From a candidate division WOR-3 bacterium (GTDB lineage Bacteria > Hydrothermota > UBA3072), in contig JBDRZZ010000008.1 in the NCBI GenBank assembly GCA_039804165.1, positions 1-64,000 on the forward strand: a stretch of 64,000 bases of DNA, read 5' to 3'. Position numbers and translations under genes: made by a program. Below, one piece after another: positions 593 through 19,491 of this stretch; the stretch's first letter is position 1, and every line of letters begins with the position of its first letter. Below the pieces are notes generated by a model, which worked only from the letters and a program-made list of their open reading frames with translations, was not told the DNA's origin and searched no databases.

Positions 593-627
593 CAGCCTAC
601 AGCCGACGGCTTACAGCTTACGGCATA
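593..627 (+). repeat. heptanucleotide tandem repeat, 5 units, in a 5' leader
   Basis: Five head-to-tail 7-mers: cagccta, cagccga, cggctta, cagctta, cggcata. The units differ by one to three bases around a YAGCYTA-like core and stand out from the AT-rich surroundings. The same type of heptad occurs inside the giant gene at 9124-9158 and 10930-11000. The array lies between the promoter at 559-586 and the ribosome binding site (aaaggagg, from about 630). Confidence 0.75.
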
Positions 628-643
628 ACAAAAGGAGGAATAG

Positions 644-2029
644 ATGTTTAAAAAAGTTTTTATTCTCGTAACTGTTTATGTATTCTTAGTTGGAATGGTT
701 ACGCGAAAGGAACTGGAAAGCGTAAAAGAGAAAGTAGATTCTCCAGCAACTGAATCTACCGCAACTTCTGAAACGTCTCAGATAAAATTAACTACTGTTT
801 ATGAGAAGACCTTTGATGAGGAGATAGTGGATGTGATATTTGATACTGCGACGGTGACGGTGGCAGAGGCGATTAATATGGGATGGAAGGAGTCAGAATT
901 TGAAGGGGTGGAAAAAACGAGAGGAAAGGCTAAAATCACTTATCCGAAGGTAGTTTTTTACGGAAAGGAAGAGTGGAGACGAACGAGAGCTATTGAGGGA
1001 TATATAATTGCTTCAAAGATTGTTTTTTATGATAAGGATGGGAAAGTGAAAAGGGAATTACGACTTGGCGGAGAAAGTGATTATTATATAAATGTATCTC
1101 CGAATGAAAAATATATTGGAGTCTCGAAACAATTCCAGAAAGAAGGGGAGAAGGGTAAAGCAGCTATGTTGTTCGATTCTGAAGGTAATGAATTGCTGTC
1201 TTTTGAAAAGGGACAGATAGTCTCTCCGATATCGGATATGGGGTTTGTAAAATATACCCCTACTTCATGGGATTACGATGGTTTTCTTATACCTATTTGT
1301 ATTTATGATTTGAATAAAAGAAAAGTTGTTGATTATGAGACTCTAAATCCCGAAATTCCCAATGCAGAGGTAGGAGGTGATGTTTTTCTGGAAGAAGGAA
1401 AATATATCTTTTCCTGGGTTTCTGGAGTGAAGAAAAGTGTTGGGAAATTGATAGATGTTCAAGCAGGTAAAATTCTCTGGAAGAAGGAGTATGATTTTGA
1501 AATAACTGGGGATTGGAGAACTGTTGCAGGAAAAGAAGATCTAGAGTTGTTTTGTATGTGTCGTAAGGAGGATTATGTTTACGATATAGTAGCTCTTCAT
1601 TGGAATACAGGAGAGGTTTTGTGGTCGTCGAGATTAGGCGCTCCTTTCTCTAATATTCTGATTGACGAGTATAATAATATTTACATTGCTGGATTTGGTT
1701 ATATAAATTCTTTTACTCCTAAGGGCAAAATGCGGTGGTATTATGAAGAACAGGAAAAACCAGTGAAGCAATTTTATCCCTATAGAGGTACACAATTGAC
1801 CTATTATATCACGCTAAAACTTTCAGGAGATCAAATCTTAAGTAGAGGTATAATTCCCGAGATGATAAAAGGTGTCTGGAATTGGAAATCATCGGAGATT
1901 TTAAGTCTCTCGAAGAAAGATGGGAAAGTAATCAAAAAAGAGAGATTTACGGGAAAAGTGATGATGAGTTCTAAAGGTGGAAAGTTGGGTATAGTTACCA
2001 ATGATAAAGTGATAAAAATCTTAAAGTGA
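644..2029 (+). CDS. Membrane-anchored or secreted PQQ-like beta-propeller protein
   Basis: 461 residues, starting 6-7 bases after a clear aaaggagg ribosome binding site. Residues 1-20 are hydrophobic (signal peptide or N-terminal anchor; no good cleavage site or lipobox is visible). Residues 25-45 form a Ser/Thr/Glu-rich linker. From about residue 60 on, beta-rich repeats include PQQ-type blade ends such as GKILW (about 274), GEVLW (about 321) and GKMRW (about 359), so the fold is probably a propeller. No catalytic motif is recognised. It overlaps the presumed GTG of the next frame but sits 14 bp ahead of the better ATG start of the giant protein, so the two are probably co-transcribed. It may be a surface or envelope accessory of the giant protein; that link is inference from position. 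Confidence 0.75.
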   Translation: MFKKVFILVTVYVFLVGMVTRKELESVKEKVDSPATESTATSETSQIKLTTVYEKTFDEEIVDVIFDTATVTVAEAINMGWKESEFEGVEKTRGKAKITYPKVVFYGKEEWRRTRAIEGYIIASKIVFYDKDGKVKRELRLGGESDYYINVSPNEKYIGVSKQFQKEGEKGKAAMLFDSEGNELLSFEKGQIVSPISDMGFVKYTPTSWDYDGFLIPICIYDLNKRKVVDYETLNPEIPNAEVGGDVFLEEGKYIFSWVSGVKKSVGKLIDVQAGKILWKKEYDFEITGDWRTVAGKEDLELFCMCRKEDYVYDIVALHWNTGEVLWSSRLGAPFSNILIDEYNNIYIAGFGYINSFTPKGKMRWYYEEQEKPVKQFYPYRGTQLTYYITLKLSGDQILSRGIIPEMIKGVWNWKSSEILSLSKKDGKVIKKERFTGKVMMSSKGGKLGIVTNDKVIKILK

Positions 2030-2043
2030 TGGAGGGTGGGAAT

Positions 2044-5000
2044 ATGAAAAACAAGATATTTTTGATGTTATTTATTATTGCTGGAAGTCTGTATTCCTAT
2101 CCCTGGCCAATAAGACCTTTTAATCAAGTCCACAATGTAATCGCAACATTGGGGGATTACAGAAAAGGTATAACAGAAGACCCTCATTATCCAAGGTTCC
2201 ACAATGGTGCAGATATACAAGCTTCCGAAAATACTGATATCTTTTCAATTGAAAGTGGAGAGTGTAAATGGAGTGGTACAAAGGAAAATGAGGGAGTGAG
2301 AGTAAGTGATTATGCCTATATTCATCTAAAAAATAGGTATCCAAAAGGGCTACCAGTGGTTGGTATCGCAGATACTTCCACGACAGATGAAGACCCGAAT
2401 AATGACCATCCCACCAAGATTGGAGAGACGAATGATCTTAATCATCTCCATTTTGCGGAAGGACCTGCAGGTGGTCCATATCAAAATCCTTTGCGAGAAG
2501 ATGAAGGTCTTGATGGGTATTCGGATAATAATTTGCCTGTTGTTTTGAAACCTGCTTTTTTCCCCTGGGGGATTGAACTACAAAGAGAACGCATAGAGCG
2601 TTCTCCTGATGCTTTATGGGGTAAAGTTGAAATAAGAGCAAAGATGCGGGATATTACGAATTGTGGAGATAATTCTGGAGTCTATATGTTCGCATACAGT
2701 GTTGTTAAAAAGCAGGGTTCTGTTGTTCATAGTGAAATATCAGGAATTTTTGACCAGGTAACTCCTCCAAATGATGGTAATCCGGTTCCACATATCTATG
2801 ATACGACACTCAGCAGACACGCTCAATCAGTGACATTTCACTACTGGCTTACTAATCCCATAATAGACCATCAGGTTAATAATCGTTACTGGAATACAAA
2901 ATTAAAACAAGGGCAAGCATGGAATGGAAGTGAGGCATTGATTGACAGGGAAGCAGCATACAAGGATGGATGGTATCGAGTATGGGCGTTGGGATACGAT
3001 ATTAGGCTGAATGGAGGTGATACCCTAAATCGCAAAGGTGCTGATTTTACAGATGTTCTTCTTGATAATTTCGTTCCTTATGTTTATGCTGTTATGGTTA
3101 CAAGGAAGGGAGAGTTGGTTTACAATGCAATGTGGCTACTTAATGATACTCAGGATGGTCTTGTCCTTGATAAAAGGAATGATGAGAATGTTTCTCCAGG
3201 TGATAGACTGACATTTAAGATATATTTTTCGGAGGAAATGGATACCCACCTGAATGCCATAAAAGTGACACTCAAAAAATCTTCCAATGAACTGGATATT
3301 GATGATGGTGCAAGATGGATTGATAAGAAGACATGGGAAGGTTCTGTAACTATCCCTAAGGATTTTGGAAAAGGGAAGGCGGTTATAAATATCTCCTGTA
3401 GGGATCTTGCAGGACACTTATTAGACAAACACCCTGGGACTATTGCTACCCGTGATGGGAATGGCAACTGGCAAAGATACGAAGAAGGAATAGATGTGAA
3501 TCATAAATTGTATATAGGAGAAGCACCAATTGTGACTAATACCGACCCATCCGATAATGCAACTGATGTTCCGATTGATAAGAACATCACTATTGTGTTT
3601 TCTAAGAGGATGGACTCAATTGCAACAGAGAGAGCAGTTTTGGTTGTTTCGGAGGATGGAAGTGATTCTGTGGATTTTACTCCTTTCTGGAGTAAGAACT
3701 ATGATACCCTTGAGCTTAGACTTAGAGATGAACTTAAATATTGTATAAGATATATAGGAACAGTTTCCGATACAGCAATCAGTAAGGAGGATAGTATTCA
3801 ACTTGATGGAGATGAGGACGGACTCCCCGGGGGAAATTACGAATTTACATTTATGACTGAAGAACCCGAGGTTTTGGTGTTTAAGGATTCAATGGTAGCG
3901 CATTTAAGAGACGGGGAGAGTGTGAATTCTAAAGTGATTACAGCGGGATGGAAGTTAAAAGACACTGTAGAGTGCGAAATTCAATTTTTTGTGAATAATC
4001 CTGGAGGGTGGTCGGTAATTAATGCTAATAATGAAGGATTTTTATTACCTCCTAAAAATATTCATAAAAATTCTTATACTGTTTTGAATAATAATGGAAA
4101 GAGACCTCTGAATGTCCTTTATGATATCAGAATAGAATGTGTAAATGAGAGTGGGGAGGGCTACTATTGGACTTCCGAAAGTCATGAGTATGATCATTCG
4201 GATGAGAACCAGTCCCCAGGTGTCACAGAATACCCAACTCCATGGATAATTAGCACATCTACAAGCGGGGCTACACTTGGTGGAGGCACAGGGGCTTCAC
4301 CTTCAGGTCTCCCGGATATCGGCATCCTCCTTTCAGGTTGGGCTGATGGATATGGACATATTTTGGGGAGGTATGGGATTTCGACATTACCTGTTAAACC
4401 AGATTTAAAAATTATTAATCATCCTGAAATTGATATTAAGGATTCTGTGAAACTATTGGTTATCGGTTCTGCTGGACTTGCAGGGCTCAATACACCAACA
4501 TTTAAACAGAAATTGGAAGAATATGTTAGAAATGGTGGAAATTTACTTGTGTTTACTCCACGCTATGGCTCGGAATTAGAGGTATTGCCCGGGAATGTTG
4601 GAGGATATGGATGGAATGAGGATCAGTCATGTTTTTGGAGGGGAGCGTATTTAAATAAGTGGCATCCAATTTTCGCTGGGCAGAAAAGTCCAGTTATGGA
4701 TTGTAATATTGATGGATATTTTTACGAAGTTCCAGAAAATTCAGAGTTTCTTCTTTGTAGAGTGAGGAATGCTCTGCCTGCGCTTTTTACATATAAATAT
4801 GGAGCTGGAACTATAATTCTTTCTTCCTTGTATTCTGATTGGAGTTATGGGCATAATCAATGTTCGCAAGGGGAGTTAAATTTACTCCGAGATTTGACAA
4901 CCTGGGCGGTTAATCCTGATATGGAAATTCCAGAGTTTTATAAAGATTCAGCGGTAGCTGTTCCTGTATCAATTAAATATACTGCAAATGATACTGTAAG

Positions 5001-8000
5001 GGCAAGAGCTGCAATAATTAAGGTTTATACTCCTGATAGAGTTTTGTATGATTCTATAGTTATTCCTATTTCTCTTGAAAGAGGAGAGGAGACAGAATGG
5101 ACGTGGAGTAAATCCTCTATTCCAGAGAATCTTGGTTTATGGGTAATTGATTATGCATTAAAGGATGAAAATGGGAACTGGATTCAAGGATATAATCGTG
5201 GGGCAGTTTTTGCTCAGAAGATAGATATTCCTATAGGTAGTATTTACACTTCTAGAATTTTTGAGATGGAGGTTATTTCTGATAAGAGAGAAGTTCTCAT
5301 TGGAGATACCGTGAACTTTCAAATAAAAATAAAAAATAAAGGAGAATATCCATTTCCAGGTAAGCTCATAATAGGTGTAGATGAAGTTGAGGGAGGGTGG
5401 AAAGTTATTGATTCAATTCTTGGCGTAACGATTCCTTCTGATTCAGAAATTATAGTTGAATATACGCGTTCTTTTTATATTAGTTCTGATGTTTACTTTG
5501 GATTGTATCAAAATCAGCAGGTCTTTTTTAGTAGATTTTTTAGGAATACTGCACTTCGTCGTTCGAAAAGTGTAGGTGTAATTTCTAAGCCCTTTAGTTT
5601 ATTTATTTATACTGATAAATCTAATTATGTTCTTGGAGTTGATTCGGTGAATTATAAGATTGAAGTGGAAAATAGGCTACCTAAGGCTTCTTACCCTTTT
5701 GTTAATCTTTATATTCTCCAAGATTATTTTAAACATATTATCTGGAGCGATACTCTGGAGCTTTTGGCAAAAGAGAAGAAGGAAATAAAAGGTGCTTTTT
5801 CCCTTTTGGATTTTGATATAATAGAGGGGAAAAAGAAATTATGTTGTGAGTTATTTTTTAGAGATAGTTTATGGAATTTTGCAAGTAGGAGTTTTGAGGT
5901 GACCTATCCTCAAGTTAAATGTTCATTTATTCTTCCTGATTCTTTTCAATATGGAGGGTCTAATCTTTTTTCTGTGAGGTTGTCTGCTTCAGGGTGGTTA
6001 CCACCCGGAAAACTTTTGGTGAGAGGGGTGAGTTTTTCGGATTCAATAATATATTTAGATTCAATAATGATTGAGAATACGATAGATACAGATACAACAT
6101 TGATTTTCAATTACCAACCGGAGTTATGGTCCACAAGGAGTGCGTTAAAAGCTCAATACAGATATATTAACAGATATATTAAACGAACAGCATTTTTGGA
6201 GTTCTACCCACCAATTGTTTCGAGTTTTAGACCTGTTTATTCTGATTACCAAGAGGGTTTTATACCTGAAGATACCGCGGTGTTTAAGGCTTGGGTTTCT
6301 CTTAAGGGGGATTTATACGGAGTGCCACTGGAATTTTCCTTATGGAGCGATTATCTTGGGAAAGATACCTTAAGAGACACCATCATTTTGAATCCGACAA
6401 CCGGGAGGACAATCACTTTGAAGGACTTTGTGGGTTTGGAAATCCCTGCAGATACAATGATTCCCTATAGTTACAGATGGAAATATCTCGATAGGAAGGG
6501 GGAATCTATCGGCAAGCTTCAGTATTTTGTGCAATCACCTGAAGCGGTTCTACACTGGCCTTTGAATGATACTTTTTCGATTGGTGCGAGTATCCCGATT
6601 ACATTTACAAACAGTATAAAATCTCCTTCGAGGGTGGACATTAAGTCTGTTTCCCTTTATGGTGGTGATGCGGTTGGCAATATTGTAGAAAATTTTGATG
6701 GTCCCGGGGTGGTGGAAATTCCAGGAGAGGGTTCTTACACTTTCAACATCACGGTCCCCCAGTGGAAAAGTGGTCAATATTACCTATCGGTAGAGGCAAG
6801 TATTGTAGAGGGCAGGGGCGTTAATTTGAATTCATATCCTTATGGTTGTCCGATATATATTGATGGTCTTACTGCGAATATTCAGGTCTCGACTTCCAAG
6901 AAGTATTATGGTCAGGGTGATGAGATTCCATTTTCTTCTGTGCTTGAGAACGGAGGATATGGATGGAATGGTGCGGAGACTTTGAAAGTGGCGAGGATGA
7001 AAGATACTTTAGAGAGTTTTTCGATATGGGATTTAACGGACACAGGTAGTGTTGAGACCTTTGGGCTTATACCGGATAGTAGCGGAGGGTATATTCTTGC
7101 TCCAGAGTATACATTGGAATGTGTTGCCAATCTTCCATATATGCCGGCTGAAGATTCGTTTTTAGTTGTTGCACTTGCTGTGGACGAATACGATAATTTA
7201 TGGGTGATGTCCGCAAGTTGTAACGGTAATAAAATATTTTTGAGAAAATGGGATAGACCTTTTGGCAATCTCCTTGCCGAATTTTCAGTTTCGATTCCAA
7301 TGATAGGATGGAATATTGATATGGAGGTGCATCAAGGCGTGATATATATCTCATCTCCTTCTAGTGGTGTAGTATACAGGTTAAATGCAAATTCAGGAGA
7401 GATTATTGGATATATTCACCCTCCCGGAGGTGGATTTTTTATGGCAATCGGTGGTATCGAAGTTAAAGATAATGGTAACATTCTTGTTTTAGATAAATGG
7501 ACTAGAATCCTCTGGGAATTTTCAAGTTCAGGAGATAGTATTTCCACCTTTGTTTTGCCGGTAGAATTTGAGGATCCATATGGGTATGGATTCGGGTTAG
7601 AGTATAAAGACGGAGTAATCTATCTTGCTGATAGAAAAAAAATTATAACTATCGAAGGGACATCAGTTGATTCGTTTGGATTAGCAAATTATGCAAATTA
7701 TATGCGTATTTCTCTATCTGATAATGGAAAACTTGCAGCTACTTTATGTGGCGAAGGATGTGGTTTAAATATTTTTTCTCCCCAGAGAGAGTTCGAAGTA
7801 GGAGGGGGAGTTTTTGTGCAAGATTTTTGTGGAGATATAACTTTTTACAAAAATTATATTGTTAGAGAAGAAACGGACGAGGAGCATGTAGTAGTTAATG
7901 ATACAATAGTAAATATTATTTATTATAACAATCTTTACCTCTACAGAGAATTTGGTAAAGATAATGGAATGCTTAAGGTTTCGGAGTTTCCTGACGCACC

Positions 8001-11000
8001 TTGGAAATATAAATTTCATAACTACAGGAATATAGATATTCCTAACTCTGGTTCCATTTCCTATCAGGTTTTAGACCAGAATGCAACATATCCGAGTGAT
8101 GATAATCTTCTACCTCTTTCGAGTATGATTGGTTCAGATTGTCTTTTACCTATTTATATAACTATGGAGGGCAATTACGAGAATTCACCTGTTTTCTATG
8201 ATTTACTCTTGAATTTGAAAACTTTTGTTTCTGATTCGGTTATTGTGAAAAATACCTATCCTTTAAGTCTCTCGCCTTATGAGAGTGTTTCATTTGCTGA
8301 TACGATAAGAGATACTGTTCCTCCTGGAGATTATATTGTATCTGGAGATGCTTATTCTAATTATCCTCAGCACATTACTTCCGATTGGAAATCATTCACA
8401 GTTATTGGAGATAATGTTGCTTTACTTTTGAATTCTAATAAGGAAGAAGGTTTTGTTGGAGAGGAGTTCAGAATTAATCCTCTTACGATAAATCCACTTC
8501 CAGAGATAAAAGAGCCTTTACATTTAATCGTAAAAGGATATTTTGGAAGCCTTGATACAACTTATCTTGATACGACTTTTATGCTTAACCCACAGTCCTT
8601 AGATTCATTCCCATTTGTGATTAGGCCGCAGGAACCTATAGTTATTCGGGCGGAACTTGCTCTTCCTTCTGGTGATACGCTTAGAAGGGAATTTATCCCT
8701 GTTGTGAAGAATACAAGACTTTTGTCTTTGCAGATTTTTGCTCCTGATGTTGTTGATTTATCACCTTTTACTGCCAAAACAGAAATTTACAATTATTCCT
8801 TTAGTCCTCTTTCTTTAGAGGTTAAAAGGATATTTGGTGCTGATACTTTAATTAATTCATTAACTCTTGGGCCCAAAGAGACTTATACTTTTGTTGATTC
8901 TTTCTCTACGGTGAGGTCTGATACTTTAAAGGTTATTGCGATAACTGGAGGAGAGAGTTTCACAAAGAAGAAATTCATTGATTGTGGAATAAAGGGTATA
9001 GTTCTTCTTGATTCTCTATTTGAGGTTTCTCCGGATTCTGTGAGGATGAACGGGATTGTGAGAAATGAGGGTTTGTATCCTTTAAGCGGGAAGGTGCTTT
9101 TCTGTCTAATTGAAAGAACAAAAGGGCTTATAGCTCACAGCTTACAGCTCTCGGCAACAGGGTTCTCAGCCGAGAGACAACAGGTGAGGGCTGAGCCTTT
9201 CCCCACCACTCTATCAGCTCAACAGGTTGCGATTTCTTCGGTTGCACGAGTTGGGAAGGATTTGAGTCTCTCTGCGTTTATAAGCCAGCTCCAGAGAGCA
9301 GGTGTGGATACTTCTCTAACCACGATTTACTTACCTATGGGTAAAAGTGATACAGTTCCAATTGCTTTTAATAGACACAACCCAGGAAATTACGAATTGC
9401 TTGGTTTTCTCTTTGCGGAAACGACGCCGGAGAAATCTGTGATGTTGGATTCAAGTTCCTCAATTGTTAATATTGTTGGTAATAATCAAGTTTTTGTTGA
9501 TTCTATCTTCGTTTCTCCAACCTGTGATTCAACTGGTTCTGTGCTATTATGGGTTACTTTAAGTAATCGTTCTTATGCTCCATTTTCTGGGAATCTTATT
9601 GTAAGTTCTCCAATATGTTATTTTGATTCTCTTATTACTCTACCTATAAAGATGCAAGATACCATTGTATTTTTCTTAAAAGAGCCAATTGATGAAGGAA
9701 GATATTACTTTACTGGGGCTCTATTAGAAGGGGGATTTTCTGTTAATTTAAAATCGCAAGTTCTTGAATTTCATCCGATATATCACTTTGATTCTTTACC
9801 TAATTTAGAGTTCTCTGTTCCTGATTCCGGGATGGTTGAGATTTCTATTAGTAATATTGGTAATGGGAAAGGAGAAAGAACTGTTGCAGTTAATTTTGTA
9901 GATGTTTTAAACATAAATAGAGATGCGGAGATTAAACCGGGTTCTTCTGAGAAGTTTTCTGGGAGTTTCTATATTCCTGAAGATTTCCCTGGAGGAAAAT
10001 ACTGGGCGAGTGCTGAAATTTTGAAGAACTCCTATCCCGAAGTAGACACTTTATTCCCTGTTCAAGTAAATGGCATCCGAATTGAAGCAAGAGATTCTCT
10101 TGATAAGCCTGTTTATTCTCCAGAGGATACCGCAAAACTTTCTATAATTGTCAAAAATAACTCTCTATTTAGCGGAGAACTTCTTTCAATTGTTAGATAT
10201 GGAGAACTTGAGCTTGATACAACTTTTATCCTTGGGGGGATGGAAAAAGGAGTTCTAAATAAAACGAATAGGGACACTCTATATCTTGATGCCTCTGGCG
10301 TTTACTTAACTGACCCGATTGAACTTATCGGTTATGACAGTGTGACAATAACAAGGGATGGTTCAGACTCTCTCGTTGTTCAAATACGAACAGACTCGCT
10401 AATAGGAAAAGGAATATGGACAACTATTACAGATAGCATAACTTATCCCATTTCGAAGTGGTTGCAATTGAAAATTGAGAATAGGGAAGAAGAAACTCTA
10501 TTTTTAAACTCTATAAATCTTGATTTTAAGCCTTCCGGTTCTTTAATTCTGGATTCATTCCCATCCACAAGAAAAGTCCTTAGTTTTAATTTACCTGTTA
10601 ACCGGAATGAGAAGAAACTTGGATGGGGGATTTACAATCCTTCTGGAAGGTCTCTTGTTCTTGATGAGAGGTATGTGTATATTGCAGATTCACTTCTTAC
10701 GATATACACGGATAAAAGTAGATACGAGATGCTTGACACTGTTCGGGCAACTCTTATAAAACACTTCGCAGATACTTCTTACCTCTTTAATTATCGTGTT
10801 TACTTCTCACCAAAAGAGGAAATAAAAGATAGTTTCAAACTCAGAGATGATACAATGAGGTTTGAGTTTGTGATTCCAAATTGGACTCGGTCGGGGACAT
10901 ATACGATTGATTATCTGGTTTATAAGAATGGGCTCAAAGCTCAGAGCTTGCAGCTTTCGGGGAGAGGTCTTTCAGTTGACAGCTCACAGCTCTCAGCTTT

Positions 11001-13041
11001 AGGAGGTGGTAGATTCGAGACTCCTCTTGCGAAGCAATGGGTTTTAGGTAAGCCTCTTTTAAGTTCAAATGGCAAAGATGTTTTCCTCTCTGGAGAGCAT
11101 CCATTCGATGTCAATGGGATAACGGTTTATTTCAAGAATGCAAAAATGGATACGAACTTCTATCACAATGGAGAGATTGCTAAAGTCTGGATGGATATTT
11201 TCTCGGATATAGACCTTGCTGTCCATCTCAATATTTCCTCGACAGGTTCTTCTAAGATGGATATTTCTCTATCTCTTAAGAAGGATATTCCGAACCATTT
11301 TGAATTCACCTATCCGATTGAGGGTTGTAAGAGAGGAACAAATGAATTGTATTTACATCTTGAGAAGGATTCGGTGAGTCTTGCAGGGACTGTTCTCCGT
11401 TTTGATGTTTATGTTGCGGACACGACTGCTCCAGTGATTTCTGTTCTAAAAGAGCCGAGCAACACATATTCGAGTAATCGTTTCTATGAATTAATTGCCC
11501 GTATTTACGAACCTGAATTAACTGGAACTCCATTTACAGACACTCTCTACTATAGAATTGCTTCAAGTGGAGGAAGTTCCTGGAATGCGCTCTCTGCTCA
11601 TTCAGTTAAGGGAGATACGAATAGATATCTAATTCCATCACATCCAAACGGGACTCACATTGAGTATCACTTGATTGCTCGGGATGAATTTGGGAATATT
11701 GCAAGATATCCTAAAGAAGGGGAGAGAGATTTCTGGGTTTTGTCTGCTCTAAAGCCGAGCTGGCAGAGTTTAACTTATTCCAATAAGCCTTCTGTTATTC
11801 TAAATTGGGATCTTCCAAGAGATCTTATTTATTATCATTGTGGATTACATTCTGATACGGTAAGCTTAAGCGATATAGAGTTTGCAACGAGATTCACTCC
11901 TCAATTTATACCTGCCAAGCTAAATCGGATTGGGATTGAGTTTATAGATGAAGGGTCCTTCATTATTGATACTTTGAAAATTTCCCTCTATTATATTGGA
12001 GCTGATTTATTACCCGGTGTAAAAATAGATTCTTTTGTTTTTGTTGACTCTTTCTATAATGGTTATAAGGAGATAGAGCTTCCCGGAATAGAGGTTCCAA
12101 AAGAAGGAATTTTTGTTGGGATAAAAGGTTCAAAGGATCTATATGGGATTTTTGATGGTTTTGGGGAAGGAAGTCATACGGTTAAAAGAAGTGAAAATTC
12201 GTGGGAGTTTAGAACGCCAGGAGAGCTTCTTATTAATGGAATGTTTTCTCATCCTGTTGGGAGTGAAGAGGAGAAAGTTGCTTCTCTTGTTTCTTTTGGT
12301 GTTTACCGTTCATCTGGCGGAATTTGGGAGAGAATAGCTTACAACTTAAAAGAGACTTCTTACACGGATACAACTATCCAGGCTGATTCCAGATATTCAT
12401 ATAAAATAATGGGTTTATTCATAAATCCAGTTGATTCCTTCTTTTCCATAAGTGATGAGGTTTTTGTTGATCTTACTCCTCCTGAGCTTGATACTGTTTT
12501 AATCAATAAGGTTGGTGATGAGATATTAATTAAGGTATTTTTAGAGGATCCATCTGGGGTTGTTTTAGATTGTCTTGGTTATTTAGAAGGAGGTGTAGAG
12601 AAATTTGTTTTTGATACTCTTGATGATGGAGAGTATTTCTTTACTCTTAGCCTTACAGAAGATACTTTGAGGTATTTCTTCTTTGCTGAAGATAAATCTT
12701 TATTGAGGAACAAGAAGAGGTTTCCTGAGATTGGTTATTATAAGTGGTGGGAGGGCTTATCTGGGATTACGGAAATTCCTGATTCCACCTATTTATTCAG
12801 GGTTAATACTGTTATAATGGGTGATTTAGATTTAAGGTATGCTCTTTCTAAGAAAGAAAGAGTTAGTATTTGTCTCTTTGACATCGCTGGTAGGAAAGCA
12901 AAAATTCTTGTGGATAGAGTGGAAGATCCTGGATATTATTCTATTCCCCTTAAGGCGTCTACACTTCCTTCTGGGATTTATTTCCTTAAAATGGAAACAG
13001 AAGACTATAGAAAAACAGTGAAATTGGTAAGGATAAGATAA
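2044..13041 (+). CDS. Giant secreted multidomain protein: M23-like peptidase head, Ig-like modules, sorting tail
   Basis: 3,665 residues. I prefer the ATG at 2044 over the GTG at 2026 because ggaggg lies 7 bases upstream and a signal peptide follows directly (MKNKIFLMLF..., to about residue 19). Residues 20-150 resemble a LytM/M23 metallopeptidase: HNGAD (His53, Asp57) and HLH (134-136) fit the zinc ligands HxxxD and HxH. Big_5/SbsA-like Ig domains follow (about 370-610), then a glutamine-amidotransferase-like segment (about 808-960) and a long series of Ig/CARDB-like modules marked by 'YTDKS.Y' strands. An NHL/propeller-like stretch lies at about 1706-1910. The last ~85 residues are a type-IX-like C-terminal sorting domain ending in VKLVRIR. 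Two in-frame low-complexity inserts carry heptanucleotide repeats. Probably an exported cell-surface protein; whether the M23 head is active is unknown. Confidence 0.8.
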   Translation: MKNKIFLMLFIIAGSLYSYPWPIRPFNQVHNVIATLGDYRKGITEDPHYPRFHNGADIQASENTDIFSIESGECKWSGTKENEGVRVSDYAYIHLKNRYPKGLPVVGIADTSTTDEDPNNDHPTKIGETNDLNHLHFAEGPAGGPYQNPLREDEGLDGYSDNNLPVVLKPAFFPWGIELQRERIERSPDALWGKVEIRAKMRDITNCGDNSGVYMFAYSVVKKQGSVVHSEISGIFDQVTPPNDGNPVPHIYDTTLSRHAQSVTFHYWLTNPIIDHQVNNRYWNTKLKQGQAWNGSEALIDREAAYKDGWYRVWALGYDIRLNGGDTLNRKGADFTDVLLDNFVPYVYAVMVTRKGELVYNAMWLLNDTQDGLVLDKRNDENVSPGDRLTFKIYFSEEMDTHLNAIKVTLKKSSNELDIDDGARWIDKKTWEGSVTIPKDFGKGKAVINISCRDLAGHLLDKHPGTIATRDGNGNWQRYEEGIDVNHKLYIGEAPIVTNTDPSDNATDVPIDKNITIVFSKRMDSIATERAVLVVSEDGSDSVDFTPFWSKNYDTLELRLRDELKYCIRYIGTVSDTAISKEDSIQLDGDEDGLPGGNYEFTFMTEEPEVLVFKDSMVAHLRDGESVNSKVITAGWKLKDTVECEIQFFVNNPGGWSVINANNEGFLLPPKNIHKNSYTVLNNNGKRPLNVLYDIRIECVNESGEGYYWTSESHEYDHSDENQSPGVTEYPTPWIISTSTSGATLGGGTGASPSGLPDIGILLSGWADGYGHILGRYGISTLPVKPDLKIINHPEIDIKDSVKLLVIGSAGLAGLNTPTFKQKLEEYVRNGGNLLVFTPRYGSELEVLPGNVGGYGWNEDQSCFWRGAYLNKWHPIFAGQKSPVMDCNIDGYFYEVPENSEFLLCRVRNALPALFTYKYGAGTIILSSLYSDWSYGHNQCSQGELNLLRDLTTWAVNPDMEIPEFYKDSAVAVPVSIKYTANDTVRARAAIIKVYTPDRVLYDSIVIPISLERGEETEWTWSKSSIPENLGLWVIDYALKDENGNWIQGYNRGAVFAQKIDIPIGSIYTSRIFEMEVISDKREVLIGDTVNFQIKIKNKGEYPFPGKLIIGVDEVEGGWKVIDSILGVTIPSDSEIIVEYTRSFYISSDVYFGLYQNQQVFFSRFFRNTALRRSKSVGVISKPFSLFIYTDKSNYVLGVDSVNYKIEVENRLPKASYPFVNLYILQDYFKHIIWSDTLELLAKEKKEIKGAFSLLDFDIIEGKKKLCCELFFRDSLWNFASRSFEVTYPQVKCSFILPDSFQYGGSNLFSVRLSASGWLPPGKLLVRGVSFSDSIIYLDSIMIENTIDTDTTLIFNYQPELWSTRSALKAQYRYINRYIKRTAFLEFYPPIVSSFRPVYSDYQEGFIPEDTAVFKAWVSLKGDLYGVPLEFSLWSDYLGKDTLRDTIILNPTTGRTITLKDFVGLEIPADTMIPYSYRWKYLDRKGESIGKLQYFVQSPEAVLHWPLNDTFSIGASIPITFTNSIKSPSRVDIKSVSLYGGDAVGNIVENFDGPGVVEIPGEGSYTFNITVPQWKSGQYYLSVEASIVEGRGVNLNSYPYGCPIYIDGLTANIQVSTSKKYYGQGDEIPFSSVLENGGYGWNGAETLKVARMKDTLESFSIWDLTDTGSVETFGLIPDSSGGYILAPEYTLECVANLPYMPAEDSFLVVALAVDEYDNLWVMSASCNGNKIFLRKWDRPFGNLLAEFSVSIPMIGWNIDMEVHQGVIYISSPSSGVVYRLNANSGEIIGYIHPPGGGFFMAIGGIEVKDNGNILVLDKWTRILWEFSSSGDSISTFVLPVEFEDPYGYGFGLEYKDGVIYLADRKKIITIEGTSVDSFGLANYANYMRISLSDNGKLAATLCGEGCGLNIFSPQREFEVGGGVFVQDFCGDITFYKNYIVREETDEEHVVVNDTIVNIIYYNNLYLYREFGKDNGMLKVSEFPDAPWKYKFHNYRNIDIPNSGSISYQVLDQNATYPSDDNLLPLSSMIGSDCLLPIYITMEGNYENSPVFYDLLLNLKTFVSDSVIVKNTYPLSLSPYESVSFADTIRDTVPPGDYIVSGDAYSNYPQHITSDWKSFTVIGDNVALLLNSNKEEGFVGEEFRINPLTINPLPEIKEPLHLIVKGYFGSLDTTYLDTTFMLNPQSLDSFPFVIRPQEPIVIRAELALPSGDTLRREFIPVVKNTRLLSLQIFAPDVVDLSPFTAKTEIYNYSFSPLSLEVKRIFGADTLINSLTLGPKETYTFVDSFSTVRSDTLKVIAITGGESFTKKKFIDCGIKGIVLLDSLFEVSPDSVRMNGIVRNEGLYPLSGKVLFCLIERTKGLIAHSLQLSATGFSAERQQVRAEPFPTTLSAQQVAISSVARVGKDLSLSAFISQLQRAGVDTSLTTIYLPMGKSDTVPIAFNRHNPGNYELLGFLFAETTPEKSVMLDSSSSIVNIVGNNQVFVDSIFVSPTCDSTGSVLLWVTLSNRSYAPFSGNLIVSSPICYFDSLITLPIKMQDTIVFFLKEPIDEGRYYFTGALLEGGFSVNLKSQVLEFHPIYHFDSLPNLEFSVPDSGMVEISISNIGNGKGERTVAVNFVDVLNINRDAEIKPGSSEKFSGSFYIPEDFPGGKYWASAEILKNSYPEVDTLFPVQVNGIRIEARDSLDKPVYSPEDTAKLSIIVKNNSLFSGELLSIVRYGELELDTTFILGGMEKGVLNKTNRDTLYLDASGVYLTDPIELIGYDSVTITRDGSDSLVVQIRTDSLIGKGIWTTITDSITYPISKWLQLKIENREEETLFLNSINLDFKPSGSLILDSFPSTRKVLSFNLPVNRNEKKLGWGIYNPSGRSLVLDERYVYIADSLLTIYTDKSRYEMLDTVRATLIKHFADTSYLFNYRVYFSPKEEIKDSFKLRDDTMRFEFVIPNWTRSGTYTIDYLVYKNGLKAQSLQLSGRGLSVDSSQLSALGGGRFETPLAKQWVLGKPLLSSNGKDVFLSGEHPFDVNGITVYFKNAKMDTNFYHNGEIAKVWMDIFSDIDLAVHLNISSTGSSKMDISLSLKKDIPNHFEFTYPIEGCKRGTNELYLHLEKDSVSLAGTVLRFDVYVADTTAPVISVLKEPSNTYSSNRFYELIARIYEPELTGTPFTDTLYYRIASSGGSSWNALSAHSVKGDTNRYLIPSHPNGTHIEYHLIARDEFGNIARYPKEGERDFWVLSALKPSWQSLTYSNKPSVILNWDLPRDLIYYHCGLHSDTVSLSDIEFATRFTPQFIPAKLNRIGIEFIDEGSFIIDTLKISLYYIGADLLPGVKIDSFVFVDSFYNGYKEIELPGIEVPKEGIFVGIKGSKDLYGIFDGFGEGSHTVKRSENSWEFRTPGELLINGMFSHPVGSEEEKVASLVSFGVYRSSGGIWERIAYNLKETSYTDTTIQADSRYSYKIMGLFINPVDSFFSISDEVFVDLTPPELDTVLINKVGDEILIKVFLEDPSGVVLDCLGYLEGGVEKFVFDTLDDGEYFFTLSLTEDTLRYFFFAEDKSLLRNKKRFPEIGYYKWWEGLSGITEIPDSTYLFRVNTVIMGDLDLRYALSKKERVSICLFDIAGRKAKILVDRVEDPGYYSIPLKASTLPSGIYFLKMETEDYRKTVKLVRIR
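9124..9158 (+). repeat. heptanucleotide repeat inside the giant gene, copy 1
   Basis: Successive 7-mers gggctta, tagctca, cagctta, cagctct and cggcaac match the leader repeat at 593-627. They encode a GL-x-A-x-SLQLS peptide. The unusual, less AT-rich stretch runs on to about 9310 and contains a ctcagcc / ggctgag inverted pair (9165-9171 and 9189-9195). The encoded insert looks unlike the flanking Ig-like strands. Confidence 0.7.
10930..11000 (+). repeat. heptanucleotide repeats inside the giant gene, copy 2
   Basis: Two runs of 7-mers: gggctca, aagctca, gagcttg, cagcttt at 10930-10957, and cagttga, cagctca, cagctct, cagcttt at 10973-11000. The first 38 bases match copy 1 (9124-9161) at about 30 positions by eye. 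Both copies are read in the same frame and give the same peptide pattern, GL-x-A-x-SLQLS. Confidence 0.7.
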
Positions 13042-13642: not shown

Positions 13643-14155
13643 ATGGATCCAGAGGCTTTTGCCTCTATTGTTGAAGAGACAAAGAGTTTTGTTTTAAAAG
13701 CAATTAGAGAAAATTTGTTTTCGGAATATTATTACGCTATAGACGACGTTGTTCAAGAAACATATATTAGGGCTTATAAAAGCCTTATAAAAAATAAATT
13801 TAGGAAAGAGTCAAAGCTCTCTTCTTGGTTATATACAATAGCTAAAAACGAATCTATAAGAATGAATAGGAAACTTTCGTCTACGGAAAGGAGAAGAGAA
13901 AAGTATGCCGAGAGGACTCTTTTGAATTTTGAGAGTAGTGTGGAAGAGAAAATTGAGAAAAAAGAGTTATTTGAAATACTTAATAAGGCAATTGGGGAAC
14001 TTCCCGGAGATTTTAAAGAAGTAATGAATTTGTATATAAGAGGTTTTACAGAAAAGGAAATGGTAAAAATTCTTTCTCTTCCAAAAGGGACAATAAAGTC
14101 AAGAATACATAGAGGAAAGGCTAAATTGAAAGAATTACTTAAGGAGGAGTTGTAA
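13643..14155 (+). CDS. RNA polymerase ECF sigma factor
   Basis: 170 residues. Region 2 is at about 15-85, with the DDVVQETYIRAYKSL core-binding segment and a SWLYTIAKN stretch in region 2.3-2.4. Region 4 is at about 115-165, with LPGDFKEVMNLYI and the helix-turn-helix LSLPKGTIKSRIHRGKAKL. The length is normal for the family. It has little ribosome binding sequence and follows the lipoprotein gene by 3 bp, so it is probably translationally coupled. Its stop overlaps the next gene's ATG (TAATG). A candidate ECF-type promoter (13084-13112) lies before the operon and another (14470-14498) before the next Spy-like gene, both plausible targets. Confidence 0.9.
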   Translation: MDPEAFASIVEETKSFVLKAIRENLFSEYYYAIDDVVQETYIRAYKSLIKNKFRKESKLSSWLYTIAKNESIRMNRKLSSTERRREKYAERTLLNFESSVEEKIEKKELFEILNKAIGELPGDFKEVMNLYIRGFTEKEMVKILSLPKGTIKSRIHRGKAKLKELLKEEL

Positions 14156-15030: not shown

Positions 15031-16320
15031 ATGAATATAATAATTTTATTCATAGTTTTTTCTATAAATACCTCTCGAGAAGGAGATACTCTTTCTATAG
15101 ATGATTGTATTGAAATTGCTCTTAAAAACTCTCCTTTAATGGAAGTTGCGAAAGGGAGTTTGAAAAAAAGTGAACTTGGAATAGGTGATGCAAGGGCTAC
15201 ACTTCTTCCAGATGTTGAACTTAAGGGTGGATATTATCTAAATAAAACTTTTAATAAAATTGAATGGAACGAAAACCATTATGATCTTAAAATTTTGGCT
15301 TCTATTCAACCTTTTAATAGTGGAAGAACTTATCTTGGAATAGAAAGGGCGGTTTCTAATTTTCATTCTGCAGAGGAAAGCTTCCGAGATATAAAGATGA
15401 GCCTTATTTTAGAAGTTATAAGAAGATATTATGCTCTTCTTAGAGCTCTAAGAATCTTAGATCTTAGAGAAAGAGCTTTGGAACAGAAGCAGAAACAACT
15501 TGATTTCTCGAAGGCTCAGTTTAGACTTGGTTTGGTTCCGAGAGCGGATACTTTAAAGGCAAGGGTTTCTTTGGAAGGAGCGAAGCTTAACTTGCAAGAG
15601 GCAAGTGGGGAACTTTTAATAAGAAAAATAGAGCTTAATGAAATAATGGGTCTAAAGTTGGATTCTTCTATTATAATTGAGGATGTTGAAATAAAGGAAC
15701 CTGAAATTCCAGATTTTGATAGCATTTTGGAAGTTGCTTATAGGAAAAGACCTGATTTGAAAAGGCAAGAATTTTTAATTTCTGCAAGTAAATGTGATCT
15801 TTTGGTTTCAAAAATTAATATGACACCCACTTTAACTGTAATTGGTGGGTATAATATTTATGCAGAAAAATTTTTGTTCCAGGGGGTTCCTTTAAATAAA
15901 GATAATTTGGAAGATAATTCGGATTGGAGTGTGGGATTAAATTTAAGTTTCCCAATATTTGATGGAGGCAAAAACTATAGGGCTATTAGTAGAGCGAGTA
16001 TTGAATTTAACAATGCAAAGCTTGAGTATGAAAATTTGAAAAGAGAGGTAGAACTGGAGGTAAAAAGAGCTTATATTAATTTGGAGAATACAAAAAAGAA
16101 GATAGAGTTATCCCAAAGGGAAGTTATAAGTGCGAGAGAAAGTTATGAGGCTGCTATTGGGAGATATAAAAATGGACTTGCTCCAATAACTGAAGTGATT
16201 GATGCTGAAGTTCTCCTTACAGAGGCAGAAGTAAATCTCGTTGAGTCGAAATACGAATTTCTTGAAGCTAACGCTTTGCTTAAAAAAGCTATGGGAGTTC
16301 TTTATGAGGAGGAAGAATGA
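15031..16320 (+). CDS. TolC-family outer-membrane efflux protein
   Basis: 429 residues. A short signal-like N-terminus (MNIIILFIVFSINTS) is followed by the typical opening of the family, LSIDDCIEIALKNSPLM. Two homologous halves of long alpha-helices and short strands follow, with a second-half marker AYRKRPDLKRQEFLI (about 236) and PIFDGGKN with an RAY-x-NLENTKK helix. The protein would form the trimeric outer-membrane and periplasmic channel of a tripartite efflux pump. Its stop overlaps the MacA-like gene (ATGA), and the MacB-like gene follows. No good ribosome binding site lies close to the ATG; the nearest aggag is locked in the hairpin at 14970-15017. Confidence 0.9.
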   Translation: MNIIILFIVFSINTSREGDTLSIDDCIEIALKNSPLMEVAKGSLKKSELGIGDARATLLPDVELKGGYYLNKTFNKIEWNENHYDLKILASIQPFNSGRTYLGIERAVSNFHSAEESFRDIKMSLILEVIRRYYALLRALRILDLRERALEQKQKQLDFSKAQFRLGLVPRADTLKARVSLEGAKLNLQEASGELLIRKIELNEIMGLKLDSSIIIEDVEIKEPEIPDFDSILEVAYRKRPDLKRQEFLISASKCDLLVSKINMTPTLTVIGGYNIYAEKFLFQGVPLNKDNLEDNSDWSVGLNLSFPIFDGGKNYRAISRASIEFNNAKLEYENLKREVELEVKRAYINLENTKKKIELSQREVISARESYEAAIGRYKNGLAPITEVIDAEVLLTEAEVNLVESKYEFLEANALLKKAMGVLYEEEE

Positions 16321-17489
16321 TAAAAAAGAAGAAAAAATACATTTTTATTAGTGGGGCTATTGTTTTACTATTGGTTATTGGGATTTTTTTTAGGACTGTT
16401 AAAGGAAAGAAGAAGAATCCATTTGCCGAAAGAATTGTTCAAGTTAGAAAAGATAATATTGTTAAAAAGGTTACAGAGAGTGGGAAGGTAGAGCCTGTGA
16501 CTTCTGTAAATGTAAAATCTGCTCTTGCTGGGGAGGTGATAAGATTATTTGTGGAGGAAGGCGATAAGGTAAAAATAGGACAGAAATTAGCTTTGATTCG
16601 ACCTCAACCGGAAGAAGCTCAAAAGGTAGCTCAGATAAAAGCATCTATAAAGAGTAAAAAATTAGATTTGGAAGAAGCTGAAAGAAATTTAAAAAGAAAA
16701 GAAACTCTTTATGAAGAAGGTTTTATCGCTGCTTGGGATGTTGAAGATGCAAAGAAACAATACGAAAACTGTAAAATTCAGCTTGAACTTGCTATAAGAC
16801 AACTTTGGGTTGTTCTTGGGGGAAATATAGAAGTTGGAGATGTGGAGTCTCTTGAGGTTGATAATATTACTCTTACCTCCTCAATTAATGGGACTGTTAC
16901 AAGTATAAATGTGGAAGAAGGAGAGATGATAACCTCGGGAACTCAAGCAATTGGAGGTGGAGGGACTACTATTATGACAATTTCCGATTTAAGTGAAATG
17001 ATTGTAAAAGTTAATATAAATGAAGTGGATATAGGATATCTTGCAAAGGGACAAAATGTTAGGATAGGATTTGACGCTATTAAAGGTGTAATTTATAAGG
17101 GTAAGGTAAAAAAGATTTCACCTTCAGGGATTGAAAGCCAAAATCTTGTTGTTTATCCCGTTGAGGTGGAGATTTTAAATCCTGATGGAAGAATTCGCCC
17201 TGGAATGACGGCAGATCTTGATATAATTGTTGGAGAGGCTAAGAGCGTTCTTTGTATTCCTAAAGAGGCTATTTTAAAAGACAATGGGAGAACAATGGTT
17301 CTTTTACGGAGAGGAGGAAAGATTACACCAAAACCGGTTGTTACAGGTTTAAGTGATGAGATTAGGATAGAAATAAAGGGTGGCCTTAAGGAAGGAGATA
17401 CATTATTAGTTCCGTTAGAAAAGGAGCCTTTTGGAAAAGAAGGTAGGCCTCAAATTGGTGGCGGAAGAATGATGCCTCCAAGATTATAA
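16317..17489 (+). CDS. macA: MacA-like periplasmic adaptor (HlyD family)
   Basis: 390 residues. One N-terminal membrane helix (about 7-25) anchors it in the inner membrane. Then come the split biotinyl-lipoyl-like domain (VNVKSALAGEVIRLFVEEGDKV, and NGTVTSINVEEGEMI after the hairpin), a helical hairpin with coiled-coil character (about 95-155), and beta-barrel and membrane-proximal domains (VVYPVEVEILNPDGRIRPGMTADL). This is the order seen in MacA. It bridges the TolC-like and MacB-like proteins encoded on either side. The start codon overlaps the TolC stop by 4 bp and the MacB gene follows after 4 bp. Substrate unknown: macrolides, peptides and lipoproteins are all known for the family. Confidence 0.88.
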   Translation: MIKKKKKYIFISGAIVLLLVIGIFFRTVKGKKKNPFAERIVQVRKDNIVKKVTESGKVEPVTSVNVKSALAGEVIRLFVEEGDKVKIGQKLALIRPQPEEAQKVAQIKASIKSKKLDLEEAERNLKRKETLYEEGFIAAWDVEDAKKQYENCKIQLELAIRQLWVVLGGNIEVGDVESLEVDNITLTSSINGTVTSINVEEGEMITSGTQAIGGGGTTIMTISDLSEMIVKVNINEVDIGYLAKGQNVRIGFDAIKGVIYKGKVKKISPSGIESQNLVVYPVEVEILNPDGRIRPGMTADLDIIVGEAKSVLCIPKEAILKDNGRTMVLLRRGGKITPKPVVTGLSDEIRIEIKGGLKEGDTLLVPLEKEPFGKEGRPQIGGGRMMPPRL

Positions 17490-17493
17490 AAAT

Positions 17494-19491
17494 ATGGAGT
17501 TGATTAAATTATTAGATATTACTAAGGTATATAATATAGGAAACTTAGAAGTTCCTGTTCTTTTAGGTATTTCTCTTGAGGTGCATAACGGAGAGTTTTT
17601 AGCTATTCTTGGCCCATCTGGTTCTGGGAAGACAACCCTTATGGATATAATTGGATGTTTATCTAAACCAACTTCTGGATGTTATTTTTTGGAAGGGGAG
17701 GATGTTAGTGAATTAAGCGAGGTTGATCTATCTATTATAAGGAAGAAGAAGATAGGATTTGTTTTCCAAAGTTTTAATCTTATCCCAAGAATGAGCGCAA
17801 TAGACAATGTGGAACTGCCTCTTTTATATTCAGGAGTAGAGGAAGAAGAGAGGAAAGAAAGAGCGATGAATGCTCTTATTAAGGTGGGTCTTTCACATCG
17901 TGCATATCATTATCCCAATGAACTTTCAGGAGGAGAACAACAAAGAGTTGCTATTGCAAGGGCTATAGTAAATAATCCTTCAATAATACTTGCAGATGAG
18001 CCTACAGGAAATCTTGATTCTAAAACAGGAAAAGAAATTATGGCTCTTTTTGAAGAACTTCACAAAGAGGGCGGGACTATCATAATGGTTACTCACGATT
18101 CAACAGTTGCCAAATATGCAGAAAGAAATCTTAAGATAAAAGATGGAAAGATTGAAAAAGAAGAGATAAAAAAGAGGGTAAGAAAAAGAGAAAATCCTAA
18201 GAAGATAGAGGAAAAAAGGGGAGATAGGAGCATTCTTGGAAGCATTATCTCAGGTTTTGTTGCAGGGTATAGAGGACTTTTGGCTAATAAACTCCGTTCT
18301 TTTCTTACAGTTCTCGGGATAATTATAGGGGTTGGAGCGGTTATTGGGGTTATGGGCATTGGAGAAGGAGCAAAAAGAAGTATTACTACTCAAATAGAAA
18401 AATTAGGGTCAAACATTATAAGCATCCATTACCGGAGACCACAAACTAAAGAGGAAGCTCTCTTGTGGCAAGGAAGATCTAAAGGTCTTACTTATCAAGA
18501 TGCTCTTGCTCTTAAAGAGGAATTAGACTTCATTTACGATGTTGAGCCTGAGGTTAGAGCTACTATTACGGCTAAATATAAGGATAAAGATTGGGAGACA
18601 AATATTGTTGGAACTCTTCCCTCTTATCAATCCATAAATAATCACTATGTTAAAGAGGGTCGTTTTTTTACAGAAGATGAATTAAGGTCTTGGACAAAGG
18701 TTTGTGTTATAGGGAAGACAATTAAAGATGAATTATTTGAGGAGGAAGATCCAATTGGTAAGGAGATAAAGATAAGTAATATGCGTTTCACAGTGATTGG
18801 GGTTTTAGAAGAAAAAGGCTCTATTGGATGGAATAATTTTGATGATAGGATAATTATTCCCCTTTTTACTGCCCAAAAAAGAATTACAGGGGAAGATGAT
18901 ATTGTGAGGGAGATTCAAGTCCAGACGAAAGGGAGCATCCCTTCAAAAGACTACGAAGAAAAAGTTAAGGATTTTCTTCTTAAAAGGCACAATCAGGTTG
19001 AGGACTTTAGAATAATGAATAGAGAAGAATTCAAACAGACAATAGAACAAACCGCAAAGACTTTTAAAATTATGCTTTCTGGGATTGCTGCAATATCTCT
19101 TATCGTTGGAGGAATTGGTATAATGAACATAATGCTTGTTTCTGTTACAGAAAGAACAAGGGAAATTGGAATAAGAAAGGCAATAGGAGCAAAGAGATTA
19201 GATATTTTAATTCAGTTCTTAATTGAATCAGTAATAGTATCTTTAAGTGGGGGAATTATTGGAATTATTTTGGGGATTATTTTCGCCACCACTTTAGGGA
19301 ATATGATAGTTGGAGCTGGACCAATCACTCCTGGTCCGAGGTTTCTAAGTGAAGGTGGTAAGTCAGTTGTTACTCCCGGTTCTATTTTGCTTGCATTCTT
19401 TTTCGCAATTGTTGTGGGAATTTTTTTTGGAATATATCCTGCAAATAAAGCCTCAAAGATGGATCCAGCTCAGGCTCTTAGATATGAGTGA
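17494..19491 (+). CDS. macB: MacB-like ABC transporter, ATPase fused to permease
   Basis: 665 residues. The N-terminal nucleotide-binding domain (about 1-225) has Walker A GPSGSGKTT (40-48), signature LSGGEQQR (about 144) and Walker B IILADEP (about 164). A charged linker (about 226-250) leads to the MacB permease: first membrane helix about 268-290, a large periplasmic MacB_PCD domain, then three C-terminal helices with the FtsX-type motif ERTREIGIRKAIGA. This is the standard MacB architecture and length. It is the last gene of the TolC-MacA-MacB unit and ends 3 bp from the convergent gene, with no visible terminator between them. Substrate cannot be read from sequence. Confidence 0.93.
   Translation: MELIKLLDITKVYNIGNLEVPVLLGISLEVHNGEFLAILGPSGSGKTTLMDIIGCLSKPTSGCYFLEGEDVSELSEVDLSIIRKKKIGFVFQSFNLIPRMSAIDNVELPLLYSGVEEEERKERAMNALIKVGLSHRAYHYPNELSGGEQQRVAIARAIVNNPSIILADEPTGNLDSKTGKEIMALFEELHKEGGTIIMVTHDSTVAKYAERNLKIKDGKIEKEEIKKRVRKRENPKKIEEKRGDRSILGSIISGFVAGYRGLLANKLRSFLTVLGIIIGVGAVIGVMGIGEGAKRSITTQIEKLGSNIISIHYRRPQTKEEALLWQGRSKGLTYQDALALKEELDFIYDVEPEVRATITAKYKDKDWETNIVGTLPSYQSINNHYVKEGRFFTEDELRSWTKVCVIGKTIKDELFEEEDPIGKEIKISNMRFTVIGVLEEKGSIGWNNFDDRIIIPLFTAQKRITGEDDIVREIQVQTKGSIPSKDYEEKVKDFLLKRHNQVEDFRIMNREEFKQTIEQTAKTFKIMLSGIAAISLIVGGIGIMNIMLVSVTERTREIGIRKAIGAKRLDILIQFLIESVIVSLSGGIIGIILGIIFATTLGNMIVGAGPITPGPRFLSEGGKSVVTPGSILLAFFFAIVVGIFFGIYPANKASKMDPAQALRYE

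Follow-up and report, generated by a model that had tools for sequence, protein, structure and literature searches.

Heptad arrays in and upstream of a giant gene

The window analysed here, 64 kb in length, is the first part of the 69 kb contig C8 in the 1.96-Mb, 49-contig draft genome of a WOR-3 bacterium (G000). It contains a giant gene, the start of which is overlapped by the end of ORF 644-2029, and several short arrays of a degenerate heptad, CAGCTNN, which lie upstream of that ORF and at two sites within the giant gene:

593-627, plus strand: leader heptad array of about five degenerate CAGCTNN units, heptad score 16-17 out of 20
2026-13041, plus strand: giant host gene encoding 3,671 aa; Ig-like modules (Big_5), and a resemblance to the Por secretion sorting domain in a C-terminal stretch
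9124-9204, plus strand: site 1 insert, a heptad array (9124-9158) followed by sequence folding back on the array; right-hand boundary approximate
10930-10957, plus strand: first heptad array of site 2, GLKAQSLQL, score 16 out of 20, missing in G004a, G048, G088 and G061
10966-11000, plus strand: second heptad array of site 2, GLSVDSSQLSA, score 19 out of 20, with exact CAGCTCACAGCTCTCAGC
10927-11072, plus strand: site 2 insert at its possible greatest length, 141 bp or 47 codons, bounded by the words AATGG at 10927-10931 and 11068-11072

The giant protein is likely exported, given the resemblance of its C-terminal stretch to the sorting domain of the Por secretion system (E 6.5e-5, a match below Pfam's cut-off). 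Shortly downstream lies a gene for an ECF-type sigma factor (13643-14155), followed by an export operon of the OEP/HlyD/MacB type (15031-19491). The leader array lies downstream of the preceding stop and ends a few bases short of the AGGAGG motif of ORF 644-2029.

Heptad similarity was scored over four units (out of 20, with a threshold of at least 16) along the whole 64 kb, and 500 codon shuffles of the giant gene served as the null model for both scores and identities. Only 593-627, 9124-9158, 10930-10957 and 10966-11007 reached the threshold, together with a reverse-strand self-match at 10972-10999; the maximum among the shuffles was 15. An earlier, sequence-only reading of this DNA had held that the two copies inside the giant gene share about 30 of 38 bases and belong to the heptad family of the leader, and both statements were confirmed: 9124-9161 and 10930-10967 are identical, ungapped, at 30 of 38 bases, against a best 38-mer match to the first copy of 23 in the shuffles (mean best 20.1), and the leader agrees with the copy at 9124 in 24 of 35 bases, where the shuffle maximum is 22. 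The second copy, described there as one segment at 10930-11000, is real but consists of two separate arrays. Both sites are read in frame within the giant ORF, as GLIAHSLQLSA and GLKAQSLQLSG...VDSSQLSA, and the site 1 insert encodes GLIAHSLQLSATGFSAERQQVRAEPF.

Base composition supports the further claim that what follows the copies differs from the rest of the protein, since 72-bp intervals at 9136 and 10938 contain 60% and 54% G+C, respectively, against a mean of 38% (sd 6) for the giant gene. Within the gene, G+C is higher only at 4266-4337 (61%), and 6702-6773 ties with the interval at 10938. The stretch at 4266-4337 overlaps a 10-12-aa Ser/Gly/Thr segment, STSGATLGGGTG (4258-4300), which is devoid of heptads and missing from the orthologues in G004, a genome of the same family. 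Site 1 has a predicted RNA hairpin over 9122-9200 (-33.9 kcal/mol, z -4.1, 0 of 200 shuffles); the predicted folds of site 2 (z -0.7) and of the leader (z -1.9) are not clearly long hairpins.

Some properties of such arrays follow from arithmetic. A perfect tandem 7-mer CAGCTNN is translated into one and the same cyclic heptapeptide, S-x-Q-L-x-A-x, whichever of the three sense frames is read, because 7 mod 3 = 1. The two copies are indeed read in the same frame, as the sequence-only reading stated, but this is automatic for a 7-nt tandem and hence uninformative, and a shared reading frame was rejected as a sign of selection. With C or T at position 6, a unit is free of stops in every sense frame, and on the reverse strand many CAGCTNN units contain a stop; of 66 arrays with at least four units at WOR-3 loci, 19 are open in all sense frames versus one in all antisense frames. 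Thus, sense copies can survive in genes, and their peptides can look alike without selection on the peptide.

Loops in related and paralogous proteins

When a segment of the giant protein was used to search for orthologues, the matches in relatives broke at both sites. In a MAFFT alignment, four distant orthologues (G004a, G048, G088 and G061) have short segments or none at these positions, with G004a missing 36 aa at site 1 and 38 aa at site 2, the latter within the possible 47-codon insert. This alignment supports the proposal that the segments were inserted into loops of variable length without breaking the frame. Over 1,890 aligned residues, the orthologue from another species of the genus (G001) is 55% identical. 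From aa 1764 to aa 3671, the two proteins differ by indels of at least 6 aa at three places, namely aa 1947, site 1 and site 2 (the G001 contig is truncated, and the artefactual indels that this creates ahead of aa 1764 were left out), and two random sites would both land in the G001 indel zones with P of about 0.003. G001 carries heptad-coded peptide at both sites, longer than and largely different from that of G000; hence, the first insertion is probably older than the split between the two species, and the loops have probably been remodelled since. With G001 filled at both sites, a plain presence or absence of the insert was not found within the genus. The sequence-only reading had named orthologues that always carry the segment as an argument against insertion; G001 does have heptad-coded segments at both sites, but the distant orthologues lack them. 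In draft metagenome assemblies, repeats can cause misjoins, but sites 1 and 2 are seen again in several assemblies made independently. In G043, a genome from another family of the phylum, the giant protein (contig C20, L066) is 45-46% identical to that of G000, whereas that of the same-family G004 is only 38-39% identical, and from these identities a horizontal transfer of the giant gene appears possible.

At each of the two sites, the repeat found in one relative has many copies in that relative's genome and none in G000. At site 2 of G001, the heptads are followed by ACAAAGCCACAAAGAACACAGAGG, which has 18 copies in G001 (at most 3 mismatches), none in its reversed control and none in G000. 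Nine of the ten copies read in G001 are intergenic, and several have an extended flank, TCTCACACAAAGCCACAAAGAACACA, in common with the site 2 copy (TCCTCACACAAAG...). At site 1 of G004 (contig C497), a long segment is encoded by stem-loop units of the type ...CCCCTACA. One palindromic unit of this site, GGCAGGTGCAAGACCTGCCC, occurs in 19 copies in G004 (at most 3 mismatches; reversed control 0) and was not found at that stringency in G000, G001, G005 or G043. Fifteen of the 19 copies are intergenic, and three of the other four lie in possibly spurious ORFs of 103-203 aa. Strings of intergenic stem-loop units ending in CCCCTACAA (GGCAGGTGCAAGACCTGCCCCTACA, GGACTCGATAAATCGAGCCCCTACA and others) were also seen at the G004 loci L327-L345; these units look like a family of interchangeable hairpins, and several units of this type stand in a row within the in-frame insert at site 1 of G004. 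The ACTCAAC arrays at site 1 of G001, with 21 matches in that genome versus 12 for the reversed control, were not counted as a dispersed family.

Further heptad copies in G000 were sought by pattern searches, and their frames were checked, as the sequence-only reading had proposed. The strong copies beyond the window are four arrays, all sense and in frame, in a second giant gene on contig C33; likewise, all 10 places in G000 within two mismatches of a three-unit heptad fall in coding sense in the two giant ORFs (C8 and C33). This second gene, and a paralogue of part of it on contig C46, are as follows:

L182:3-12758, minus strand: second giant gene, contig C33, 4,252 aa, incomplete
L392:368-1324, minus strand: C46 paralogue of the C33 N-terminal domain, 318 aa, 47% aa identity

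In the C33 protein, an N-terminal SQHop/TED-like domain is accompanied by Big modules and five CARDB matches, and the heptads of this protein sit in variable-length loops of the tandem modules and in one loop of the N-terminal domain. CCGCTNN heptads (CCGCTATCCGCCTGCCG, CCGCTATCCGCTTGCCGC), a sister word of CAGCTNN, are also present in frame in this gene (L182, about 1520-1550 and 1640-1690, minus strand). C33 and C46 share a nearly identical DNA tract of about 330 bp, outside which the similarity falls away. At one and the same point of this tract, both in frame, C33 contains 33 bp of CAGCTNN and C46 contains 66 bp of GGGTATA, and the left flank of the insert is identical at 161 of 168 bases, the right flank at 84 of 100. 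GGGTATA arrays are found at two further places in G000, both intergenic. The shared tract looks like the outcome of gene conversion or of a recent partial duplication between paralogues, and the pair, in which both sites are filled and neither is empty, is the best single evidence for a putative cassette-like replacement.

Distribution of the heptad and comparison with known repeats

The exact word CAGCTNNCAGCTNNCAGC was found in 20 of 147 WOR-3 genomes, with a reversed control of zero in most genomes, though not in some larger ones. At the WOR-3 loci read, using simple ORF calls, 59 arrays are intergenic, 20 sense and 9 antisense. Very long CAGCTAA/CAGCTTA arrays of 24 to 28 units are located at or near contig ends in G030, a WOR-3 relative from the same phylum as G000 (L106:1-168 and L108:4-226). 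Four exact CAGCTNN units with C or T at position 6 occur, among the matches listed, in many phyla, including Pseudomonas, Halomonas, Acidobacteria, Planctomycetota and Bacteroidota; thus, the word is neither new nor confined to WOR-3. An apparent sense bias across phyla (27 sense versus 5 antisense) shrinks to about 8 versus 4 once ORFs that start or end near the array are removed, and we make no claim of it.

These arrays in many phyla, together with published heptamer repeats in leaders and ORFs (PMC4679880, PMC2700814, PMC4692102), leave the suggestion of a new repeat family without support; both heptad families and in-frame repeats, the latter in Rickettsia, are already known. A close comparison is offered by the TAACTGA heptamers of Beggiatoaceae, cyanobacteria and Bacteroidetes, which are mostly intergenic, often just upstream of starts (MacGregor 2015, PMC4679880), and which 25 ORFs of Beggiatoaceae contain or overlap, with the same stop-codon reasoning (PMC4679880). 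Both are tandem 7-nt direct repeats, and TCAGTTA, the TAACTGA word read on the other strand, is close to CAGCTNN. In both, the copies within ORFs stand in the stop-free orientation, all in-gene heptads of G000 being sense, and the TAACTGA peptide, LSVISYQ, may be compared with S-x-Q-L-x-A-x. However, CAGCTNN has two free positions whereas the TAACTGA word is fixed, and TAACTGA copies in ORFs are found mainly at protein ends, whereas those described here occupy internal module loops; exchange with other repeat families is not reported for TAACTGA (PMC4679880). In Geobacter metallireducens, four tandem heptanucleotides (GGGACCG) occupy 49 intergenic and intragenic places, sometimes several per gene (PMC2700814); the word is another one, and that report reads the elements as regulatory RNA and is not known to compare their in-gene copies among orthologues. 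The cyanobacterial STRR heptanucleotides and the GGGNATC repeats of Xanthomonas and Nostoc are likewise short arrays with a 7-nt period enriched between genes but, unlike CAGCTNN, which has no G-tracts, they are G-rich, quadruplex-capable and depleted in coding regions (PMC4692102).

The sequence-only reading had also pointed to the Rickettsia palindromic elements (RPE), palindromes of 105-146 bp present in 19 reading frames, many of them of conserved proteins (Ogata et al. 2000; PMC2229807); a guanylate kinase bearing an RPE is still active (PMC2229807). The analogy is apt in the sense of working alike, as both are dispersed intergenic repeats that also occur in frame inside protein genes, and the RPE is tolerated by the protein. 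Membership in the RPE was rejected: two of the three window copies are not clearly palindromic (site 2, z -0.7; leader, z -1.9), and the window arrays are 7-mer tandems of about 21-35 bp in giant exported proteins, against an RPE unit of 105-146 bp. Our search of the literature found nothing on WOR-3 intergenic repeats and, within the open-access literature, no published case in which the same orthologous loop is occupied by different dispersed repeats from one species to another.

Origin of the inserts

Other genomes of the phylum contain the heptad word at dispersed, mostly intergenic, positions; the segments of the giant gene are missing from distant orthologues, and two paralogues within G000 hold different in-frame arrays at the same point. 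We consider it probable that both segments are short dispersed repeats of the intergenic type that came to lie in permissive loops of a giant exported protein, where they persisted as the frame was kept. The DNA would have been copied in from another locus, be it by mobility, template switching or ectopic recombination, and the inserts would then have kept changing by recombination and slippage among copies. A purifying filter would leave only frame-preserving, stop-free copies in tolerant loops, a filter that the heptad should pass easily, given its identical peptide in every sense frame and the absence of sense stops with C or T at position 6. The predicted effect on the protein is a flexible linker rich in Ser, Gln and Ala, which is likely neutral or nearly so. 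The evidence from the palindrome (GGCAGGTGCAAGACCTGCCC) and from CACAAAG comes from repeat families other than the window heptad. The earlier wording, that the repeat "invades" genes, implies a mobility that is not supported. No transposase was found; of the terminal inverted repeats and target-site duplication that would mark a MITE-like mobile element, an unsystematic inspection showed only the 5-bp AATGG direct repeat at site 2, which may be due to chance. Nor did the comparison yield a pair of filled and empty sites with identical flanks, C33/C46 and G001 both being filled, differently, and the distant orthologues being empty.

Alternatively, 7-nt tandems might arise in place, by local slippage in tolerant low-complexity loops and with no transfer between loci. 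Heptad units that are degenerate and variable in number, a heptamer word that differs between loci (CAGCTNN, GGGTATA) and the fact that variable-length loops are normal indel hot spots all agree with such an origin, which nevertheless would have to produce the same CAGCTNN word at the leader, at the two window sites and in the four C33 arrays. Moreover, what G001 and G004 carry in these loops are 20-24-mers that are not tandem and that recur in 18-19 copies elsewhere in the respective genome, and we regard slippage as unlikely. Quite improbable, in our estimate, is that the exposed loops are adaptively hypervariable, with useful variation in contacts with phages, predators or substrates being kept up as they recombine with dispersed repeats. 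For a test of selection the inserts cannot be aligned, an unsystematic look identified no diversifying machinery, and the tolerance of a long modular protein gives the same pattern; on the other hand, species with different repeats make repeated use of the same two loops, G000 has its strong heptad copies concentrated in two giant proteins, and the C33/C46 pair points to exchange between paralogues.

A last candidate, in which SLQLS would be a normal strand of the Ig-like module and chance or convergence would account for the similarity of the DNA, is extremely improbable and was rejected. The orthologous modules of G004a, G048, G088 and G061 do without the segment, the DNA similarity is far above that of codon shuffles, and the tandem modules of C33 display heptad peptides in loops of variable length. 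Single-sequence AlphaFold models of the two modules place the peptides between predicted strands, but these models (mean pLDDT 44 and 32) are too poor for use.

Returning to dispersed repeats that entered permissive loops, we tentatively suggest an extension: a few loops of WOR-3 giant exported proteins may be landing sites that exchange in-frame cassettes of dispersed repeats copied from intergenic DNA. If so, each species would obtain its own loop sequences. The same orthologous loop can be compared across species that carry unrelated repeat families, and the C33/C46 paralogues have different arrays between near-identical flanks; the process is thus testable. That heptamer repeats are able to enter genes whatever the sense frame has a simple reason in 7 mod 3 = 1. 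Few routes by which existing proteins may gain new sequence are visible, and in-frame insertion of non-coding repeats is one of them.
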